DNA from: Calidithermus chliarophilus DSM 9957
Lineage (GTDB): Bacteria > Deinococcota > Deinococci > Deinococcales > Thermaceae
DNA length: 64,000 bases
Assembly: GCF_000430045.1 (NCBI RefSeq)
Contig: NZ_KE387023.1
Coordinates: 2,588,929 to 2,652,928 of the forward strand
Reading direction: 5' to 3'
Shown: piece by piece, positions 41,929 to 43,348 of the stretch
Numbering within the stretch: position 1 is the stretch's first letter
Layout of the letters: each line of letters begins with the position of its first letter
Position numbers and translations under genes: made by a program
The notes under the pieces: generated by a model
Database searches by the model: none
What the model saw: the letters and a program-made list of their open reading frames with translations, nothing else
What the model was told of the DNA's origin: nothing

Positions 41929-43033
41929 AGCGCAATTCGTCCAGTACCAGCTTCCGCTGCTCCTCGAGGTGCCAGGGGCGGCTCGAGAGCACGTCCTCGA
42001 ACATCCACTCGGCCGGGGCCTCGCCCGCGGCCTCGGCTTCCTGCAAGGCGGCCTCGAGGTCGTGCGCGACCTGGGTGCGCAGCTCGTTCTCGGCGGCGCT
42101 GTCCCACAGGCCGCGGTGCTCGAGGAACTTGCGGAAGCGCACGAGGGGGTCCTGCTTGCGGGCGGCGTCCACCTCGGCCTTGGGGCGGTAGCGGGTGTCG
42201 TCGTCGGCGGAGGAGTGGGGGCCGTAGCGGTAGACCTCGAGCTCGACGAGCGCCGTGCCCGCGCCGGCCCGGGAGCGCTCGATCACGTGGCGCATGACGT
42301 AGTAGCTCGCCAGCACGTCGAGCCCGTCGACGCGGTAGCCCGGGATGCCGTAGGCGTGGGCCTTGTCGGAGATGGTGTGGGAGGAGGTCTGGTGGGAGTA
42401 GTCGACGCTGATGGCGTAGCGGTTGTTCTCGCAGACGAACACGGCGGGGGCGTTCTGCACGGCGGCGAAGTTGATGCCCGCGTGCCAGTCGCCCTCGCTG
42501 GTGGCCCCGTCGCCGAAGGTGCACACCGCGACCTGATTGGTGCGGCGCAGCTTCATGCTGATGGCGGCTCCGGCCGCCGGGGGGATGTGCGAGGCGATGG
42601 CCGAGCAGACGGTGAAGATGTTGAGCTTTTTGGAACCGGGGTGCGAGGGCATCTGCCGGCCCTTGGCGGGGTCGGCGGCGTTGCCCAGCATCTGCCCGAA
42701 GAGTTCTACCATCGGGACGCCCATGGCGAGCATCAGGCCCATGTCGCGGTAGTAGGGGAAGAGCCAGTCGTGGCCGCGCTGCAGGGCGTGGGCGATGCCC
42801 ACGTGGGCGGCTTCGTGCCCGGCGTGGGGGGCGATAAAGCTGGTCTTGCCGGTGCGGATGAGGATGACGAATTTCTCGTCGAGCATCCGCGCGGCCACCA
42901 TGTCGCGGTAAAAGCCCTTGAGGGTGGCCTCGTCGAGGTCGAGCTCAAACGGCGCGATCCACTCCCCTTCGGGCGATAGCAGCCGGATGGGCTCGAGGCT
43001 AAAGGGTTCGAAACCGGTTTTGTCTTTAATCAT
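41927..43033 (-). CDS. bkdAA: branched-chain 2-oxoacid dehydrogenase E1 alpha subunit
   Basis: 368 residues. It holds the thiamine-diphosphate motif beginning [13 protein letters not shown] (174-186) and ending NNRYAIS. The phosphorylation-loop-like region is [16 protein letters not shown]-terminal extension and overall length fit the branched-chain enzyme of Thermus rather than pyruvate dehydrogenase. The product feeds branched-chain fatty acid synthesis and Leu/Ile/Val breakdown. ATG 43033 overlaps the upstream leader frame (ATGA) and has GGAGG 6 bases before it. Confidence 0.94.
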
Positions 43034-43266
43034 GCCGAACCTCCAGACCTGGGGAGGATCCCCTTTGGGGCGGCGAGGCCGCGCACCAAGCGGAGGGCGT
43101 TCCGCCAGGCGTCATGACCCTGGGTAAGGGCCACGTCCAGCAAAGCACCCTGCCCCTTTGTAAGGGACTCGGGAGCCGTCAACGAAAAACCCCGGCGAGG
43201 GTATGCCGGGGCCGAGGCCGGGGAAAGGCCGATGATGACCAGCTTTAGCGCTCCAACCATCCCCAT
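43030..43266 (-). CDS. leader reading frame of the dehydrogenase operon, possible attenuator peptide
   Basis: 78 codons, preceded by GAGAGG 6 bases before the ATG and by a TATAAT box. The first 14 residues are [14 protein letters not shown], of which 7 are Leu, Val or Ile. An intrinsic-terminator hairpin lies inside the frame (codons about 19-26). The frame ends by overlapping the E1 alpha start by 4 bp. Codon third positions are less biased than in neighbouring genes, so it is more likely a regulatory peptide than an ordinary protein. No homology is recognised. Confidence 0.45.
43185..43211 (-). terminator. leader terminator-like hairpin before the bkd operon (putative attenuator)
   Basis: Minus strand: CCCCGGC (43211-43205), 8-nt loop, GCCGGGG (43196-43190), then TTTTT. 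Perfect 7-bp GC stem, about 70 nt after the predicted transcription start and 150 nt before E1 alpha. Confidence 0.65.
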
Positions 43267-43287
43267 CGTCAACCTCTCGATCCTCAG

Positions 43288-43293
43288 ATTATA
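43288..43293 (-). promoter_or_regulatory. -10 box of the bkd operon
   Basis: TATAAT on the minus strand, 21 nt before the leader ATG. No clear -35 element. Confidence 0.55.
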
Positions 43294-43348
43294 GCCTCGG
43301 CCGTGTGAGAGGATACCTCGAGATGCAACATTCGGGGTATTAACCCGT

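Follow-up and report, generated by a model that had tools for sequence, protein, structure and literature searches.

The window, a stretch of 64,000 nucleotides from Calidithermus chliarophilus DSM 9957, encodes on its minus strand a branched-chain 2-oxo acid dehydrogenase (bkd), with all four subunits present in a single operon: E1-alpha (41927-43033), E1-beta (40875-41849), the E2 acyltransferase (39355-40791) and the E3 dihydrolipoyl dehydrogenase (37499-38920, TIGR01350 above cut-off). E1-alpha matched the Pfam family E1_dh and was preceded by a Shine-Dalgarno sequence, GGAGG (43040-43044, minus strand). The closest solved structures were those of a 2-oxo acid dehydrogenase alpha subunit (1um9, 1umb, 1umc and 1umd, E=7.8e-171), which we take to be the T. 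thermophilus enzyme acting on branched-chain 2-oxo acids, and NCBIfam PDH E1-alpha scores fell below cut-off for the window protein. The E1-alpha subunits of the window and of Calidithermus roseus were 94% identical. The upstream neighbour rlmH (43361-43795, plus strand) is divergent, so a terminator in the bkd leader serves no same-strand gene upstream.

Ahead of E1-alpha, a TATAAT box, a GAGAGG sequence, an ATG opening a frame rich in Leu, Val and Ile, a 7-bp GC hairpin with TTTTT and an ATGA overlap were all found where an earlier sequence-only reading of this DNA had placed them, all on the minus strand. Calidithermus and Meiothermus shared the -10 box TATAAT (43288-43293, GCTATAAT) at this position. 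No recognisable sigma-70 -35 box matched it, so that the promoter was assigned from the conserved -10 box alone. The leader Shine-Dalgarno GAGAGG (43273-43278) corresponded in relatives to AGAGG or AGGAGG, followed after 4-8 nt by a start codon at the same place. The leader reading frame encompasses 78 codons (43030-43266), from the ATG at 43266 to a TGA (43032-43030) that overlaps the E1-alpha ATG (43033) as ATGA (43033-43030), and matched no Pfam family. Half of its first 14 residues (7/14) are Leu, Val or Ile, and the putative control codons CTA AAG CTG GTC ATC ATC GGC CTT (L-K-L-V-I-I-G-L) occupy positions 43225-43248. Synonymous and non-synonymous changes differed only weakly among the closest pairs (pS 0.21 and pN 0.14 between the window and C. 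roseus), in counts based on few sites.

The intrinsic terminator (43185-43213, minus strand) lies within this frame, 53 nt past the leader ATG and 14 nt after the last branched-chain codon. Its stem (43213-43205 with 43196-43188) includes a GC core of 7 bp (CCCCGGC, 43211-43205, with GCCGGGG, 43196-43190), closes the loop ATACCCTC and runs into TTTTT (43189-43185). It ranked best among three terminator-like matches in 2.5 kb and, among five strong terminator-like hairpins in the 64-kb window, was the only one entered by a Shine-Dalgarno-led, Leu/Val/Ile-rich frame. No U-rich pause tract was seen by eye ahead of it, and the Rfam 15 covariance models (T-box, riboswitch and other RNA leaders) gave no match between 42500 and 44500 at E up to 5. 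Several lineages carry, directly before the terminator, a CCTC or CCTTT able to pair with the leader Shine-Dalgarno. For the window, the partners are GAGAGG (43278-43273) and CCTTTC (43227-43222), which can form a long imperfect hairpin whose z-score was not significant; we conjecture that a structure of this kind might make the polymerase pause or block initiation on late transcripts.

A set of 50 genomes belonging to the family, and many of the order, supplied E1-alpha orthologues with the DNA upstream of them. The same leader build (a start soon after the -10 box, a Shine-Dalgarno and an in-frame intrinsic terminator) was found in both Calidithermus, in most Meiothermus, in both genomes of a second genus (g2, with a weak terminator in one), in nearly all readable members of a family labelled Oceanithermus/Marinithermus-like as a guess from relatedness (f4), in some Trueperaceae and in three Thermomicrobia. 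Thermus and one further genus displayed neither the leader frame nor the terminator, an absence most simply explained by loss because more distant families carry the leader. Terminators varied in sequence yet always paired (CCCCGGC/GCCGGGG, AGACCTCC/GGAGGTCT, CCCAACTTG/CAAGTTGGG, CTCCGC/GCGGAG), and the frame stayed open through or into the terminator in relatives despite the changed stems. Conservation among Thermaceae, by which the earlier reading was to be judged, was thus found in the arrangement and not just in the letters, across several families, with the leaderless Thermus and one further genus as exceptions.

Each of the 25 bkd leaders whose terminator is clear has its stop codon 13-204 nt past the point where the 5' arm of the terminator begins, and in the three Thermomicrobia the stop codon is likewise past the hairpin. 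Two leaders (L132 and L154) have their stop codon within the terminator loop, so that a ribosome just completing the peptide would already occupy the hairpin. When an unbiased list of Shine-Dalgarno-led frames between the -10 box and the terminator was drawn up irrespective of their stop, 38 of the 39 entered the terminator. In a few relatives, a Leu, Val or Ile codon is so near the hairpin that a ribosome stalled on it would keep the terminator from forming.

Most Meiothermus bkd leaders (e.g., L005, L086, L087) displayed an extended hairpin closing over the terminator, formed by 5' CCCGG..CCAA(AGC/CAA/AAA) with (GCT/TTG/TTT)TTGG..CCGGG/CTGGG, the latter 3' of the T run; CCCGGTATACC in Meiothermus looks like a relic of an ancestral terminator arm. 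In the Thermomicrobia (L015-L017), a leader with the sequence MSAGYVITMLELQIRGVLRLVLRILIPERARS is found about 180 nt 5' of E1-alpha and crosses a hairpin that is strong but has a poor T run, the same architecture in another phylum, where it perhaps moved with the operon.

Leu, Val and Ile codons were concentrated in the leader frame. Among 19 representatives, they accounted for 113 of the 375 codons ahead of the terminator (30%) in this frame versus 13% and 10% in the other two, and the leader frame was open into the hairpin in 19 of 19 cases versus 4 and 12 of 19. Shuffling each of the 19 leaders gave a combined p of 3e-8, from which the kinship among them was not removed. As about a quarter of the residues of ordinary proteins are Leu, Ile or Val, the argument lies in the clustering of these codons and not in their mean. 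Runs of 3-5 such codons recurred in Calidithermus, f4 and Trueperaceae. Meiothermus leaders, with mostly 16-23%, were no richer than ordinary protein and carried a short I-I-G or V-I-G core. The case for branched-chain specificity, as proposed by the earlier reading, is therefore strong in Calidithermus, f4 and Trueperaceae only.

The ilvBNC-leuA operon of the same genome (L282, C3:2332300-2333300) provided an internal control. Its leader, MPASLALTLVVVGLVIIGPTGDRV, stops 27 nt short of the terminator arm CCCCCGG; in C. roseus, the last codons of the ilv leader contain a G-run (ACGGGGGATAGGG) complementary to the terminator arm. By its anatomy, the ilv leader would be a textbook Leu/Val/Ile attenuator in which the G-run within the peptide serves as antiterminator. 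When ilvB loci were compared (L222-L251 and L283-L305, together with L282 itself), this attenuator was found to be kept through Thermaceae, with the stop codon 14-28 nt upstream of the terminator arm in 31 of 31 family leaders, and, among the f4 and Trueperaceae genomes that were inspected, several also had classical-looking ilv leaders. The Leu/Val/Ile runs of bkd leaders resemble the LVIIG core of the ilv leader. Like the trp, his and ilv attenuators, the bkd leader combines a short peptide bearing codons for the regulated amino acids with an intrinsic terminator and no protein factor; it differs from them by its stop within or beyond the terminator, by having no antiterminator and by a predicted opposite sign. 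It falls outside the classical attenuator family, as two features that define that family, a stop before the terminator and an antiterminator, are both absent from it.

Folding with a masked ribosome separated the two kinds of leaders. A 30-nt ribosome footprint was shifted along each leader at 60 °C; two Thermomicrobia (L015 and L017) were left out, and their terminators were re-examined separately. In the complete RNA, the probability of the bkd terminator was about 1 in most leaders with the ribosome anywhere before the arm, control codons included, and 0 once the footprint had reached the arm, up to the stop codon. As full-length ilv leaders did not display the antiterminator at equilibrium, the test was rerun on RNA ending before the 3' arm. 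There, the ilv arm was typically 0.6-0.9 sequestered with the ribosome on Leu, Val or Ile codons and was freed at the stop codon in most leaders (from 0.67 to 0.25 in the own genome), whereas ribosome-dependent sequestration of the arm was absent in bkd leaders. In this model, only a ribosome sitting on the hairpin would remove the bkd terminator.

Taken with the comparison of leaders, this makes it probable, in our judgement, that a sign-inverted, ribosome-controlled transcription attenuator governs the bkd operon. Transcription would start just past TATAAT, and a ribosome would begin the leader at 43266, as the conservation of this site suggests. With charged Leu-, Val- and Ile-tRNAs, the ribosome would clear L-K-L-V-I-I-G-L and reach the 5' arm of the terminator; sitting on the arm by the time the polymerase transcribes the T run, or earlier, it would block the hairpin and switch the operon on. 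With branched-chain aminoacyl-tRNA in short supply, the ribosome would halt about 14 nt or more short of the hairpin, which would then form and terminate transcription near 43185. The hairpin would also form, with the operon off, when no ribosome is loaded. From these features, we infer that the leader is translated, that termination takes place in vivo and that it depends on branched-chain aminoacyl-tRNA. This reversed logic, in which charged tRNAs turn the operon on and stalling turns it off, is the best-supported reading; the earlier reading had already proposed a logic opposite to that of biosynthetic attenuators, and setting the bkd leader directly beside its ilv counterpart in this genome argues in its favour. 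The bkd operon consumes branched-chain 2-oxo acids and supplies branched-chain fatty acids, and the predicted sign fits this role.

Results from E. coli bear on the individual steps. Termination at an intrinsic terminator is suppressed when a ribosome sits on or close to it and is restored by 10-15 free nucleotides before the hairpin; in amino-acid attenuators, the distance from the leader to the terminator always exceeds 20 bp (PMC4824070). A synthetic stall ahead of the in-frame terminator of pyrL led to more termination (PMC5021804). Over the first 100 bp of a frame, a ribosome seldom catches up with the polymerase and has difficulty suppressing a terminator unless the polymerase pauses (PMC4824070). 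Timing is thus the weak point of the scheme, as the window terminator is only 53 nt from the ATG. The scheme is also weakened by Meiothermus leaders that are not rich in Leu, Val and Ile overall, by the small difference between synonymous and non-synonymous change, and by the few relatives with such a codon close to the hairpin.

Partial parallels can be found among known systems. The leader of E. coli tnaC belongs to an amino-acid catabolic operon that excess amino acid turns on, through a tryptophan-induced arrest that blocks Rho; the bkd leader has an intrinsic terminator, and a stalled ribosome is expected to switch its operon off. In the E. coli ampC leader, ribosome loading relieves a terminator, giving a positive link between translation and expression, as would be the case for bkd, but it has no sensor codons whereas the bkd leader has putative ones. 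The closest likeness is to E. coli pyrBI, whose leader (pyrL) also contains an in-frame terminator suppressed by a ribosome keeping pace (PMC4824070, PMC5021804). There, UTP is sensed through polymerase speed, whereas the catabolic bkd operon has codons for the amino acids of its own pathway before the terminator, so that the speed of the ribosome would do the sensing. The terminator of B. subtilis bmrB is, as in bkd, located within the leader coding region, but it comes with a predicted antiterminator and stalling turns the gene on (PMC4191407). In the amino-acid attenuators of the cited papers, a stalled ribosome turns the genes on. The novelty of the bkd leader would lie in being a natural, amino-acid-specific and sign-inverted version of a pyrBI-like scheme. 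The open literature contained no prior report of bkd attenuation or of such leaders in Thermus or Meiothermus, subscription journals being outside the scope of the search.

The same in-frame terminator might sense ribosome supply or the general translation rate, in an ampC-like growth-rate control to which the Leu/Val/Ile codons are incidental. We regard this as unlikely, though deserving some weight: every frame crossing a terminator responds to translation, most Meiothermus leaders have a low Leu/Val/Ile content, and pairing of the Shine-Dalgarno with CCTC/CCTTT would make early ribosome loading decisive. Against it, the runs of 3-5 codons recur, the bias is confined to the leader frame, the runs recall the ilv LVIIG core, and the operon degrades exactly Leu, Val and Ile.

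A further hairpin, absent from the earlier reading, was located between the terminator and E1-alpha. This UACCC-loop hairpin (TGGCCCTTACCCAGGGTCA, 43115-43133, minus strand) was kept through Thermaceae, with an invariant loop, compensatory changes at 7 of 7 stem pairs and an outer helix across an asymmetric internal loop. A second, degenerate copy (GTCCCTTACAAAGGGGC, 43152-43168, minus strand) showed the same change in C. roseus. One copy was present in Thermus and in some f4, and usually two, 28-31 nt apart, in Meiothermus and g2. The hairpin had no Rfam match, and with a covariance model its bkd-leader instance was the best match in nearly all of 50 genomes, which marks it as specific to the bkd leader of Thermaceae and some f4. 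A genome-wide UACCC regulon was rejected, as the further strong matches inspected were almost all within coding sequence (ALTQG codons), and pairing of the loop with the E1-alpha Shine-Dalgarno was rejected by eye, being possible in Thermus and not in Meiothermus. Since the hairpin persists in Thermus without a leader peptide, it has a role of its own, likely as a binding site for a protein, a small RNA or a ligand.

Termination might be set by a binder of the leader RNA, through the UACCC hairpins or another factor, the peptide merely coupling translation to E1-alpha via ATGA. The hairpins are the most widely kept part of the leader in Thermaceae, Thermus included, and the ATGA overlap was found in Calidithermus; but they lie 3' of the terminator and could exert no action on it before termination, and in most relatives the leader stop does not adjoin the E1-alpha start, which leaves this explanation quite improbable. 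We give still less credit to a classical attenuator, in which Leu/Val/Ile stalling would form an antiterminator and turn the operon on. A Leu/Val/Ile-rich leader with a terminator is its textbook signature, and the ilv operon of the same genome is of this type by anatomy; in the bkd leader, however, there is no antiterminator segment, the control codons of the window are only 14 nt from the terminator, arm sequestration did not depend on the ribosome in masked folding, and a finishing ribosome cannot free a terminator located before or around its stop codon. That frame and hairpin are chance products of a GC-rich 5' region is hardly tenable, even though long chance frames are common in GC-rich DNA and the fold z-score of the whole leader was just -1.5, given the frame-specific codon bias, the start site kept after the -10 box, terminators that swap sequence but retain pairing, and the sharp contrast between bkd and ilv leaders.

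With the terminator inside the frame, the sign-inverted attenuator would need no antiterminator, and its sign would be reversed, so that the position of the stop relative to the hairpin would decide between induction by scarcity and by plenty. In a wider form, synthesis (ilvBNC-leuA) and breakdown (bkd) would be placed under reciprocal control without a regulatory protein, by similar sensor codons in opposite geometry; this arrangement would be old in Deinococcota, occur in several families and in Thermomicrobia, and represent a natural class of sign-inverted catabolic attenuators. To this wider proposal we give about even chances. Having both ilv and bkd leaders in one genome allows a natural and directly testable comparison, in thermophiles whose transcription-translation coupling is little studied, and also suggests a rule to search for unrecognised catabolic attenuators: sensor codons, an in-frame terminator and a stop beyond the terminator.

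Within the operon, a gene of the PF05635 family (23S rRNA-intervening-sequence family; 38944-39318, minus strand) is located between E2 and E3, with 7-bp-period repeats (AAACGCA/GCGTTTT) on either side (38913-38939 and 39318-39353), as if inserted. More arrays of the same 7-bp-period repeat (ACGCAAA/GCGTTTT) were found in intergenic DNA at 43866-43925 and 45608-45714, where they form a 96-nt inverted pair, 75% complementary.
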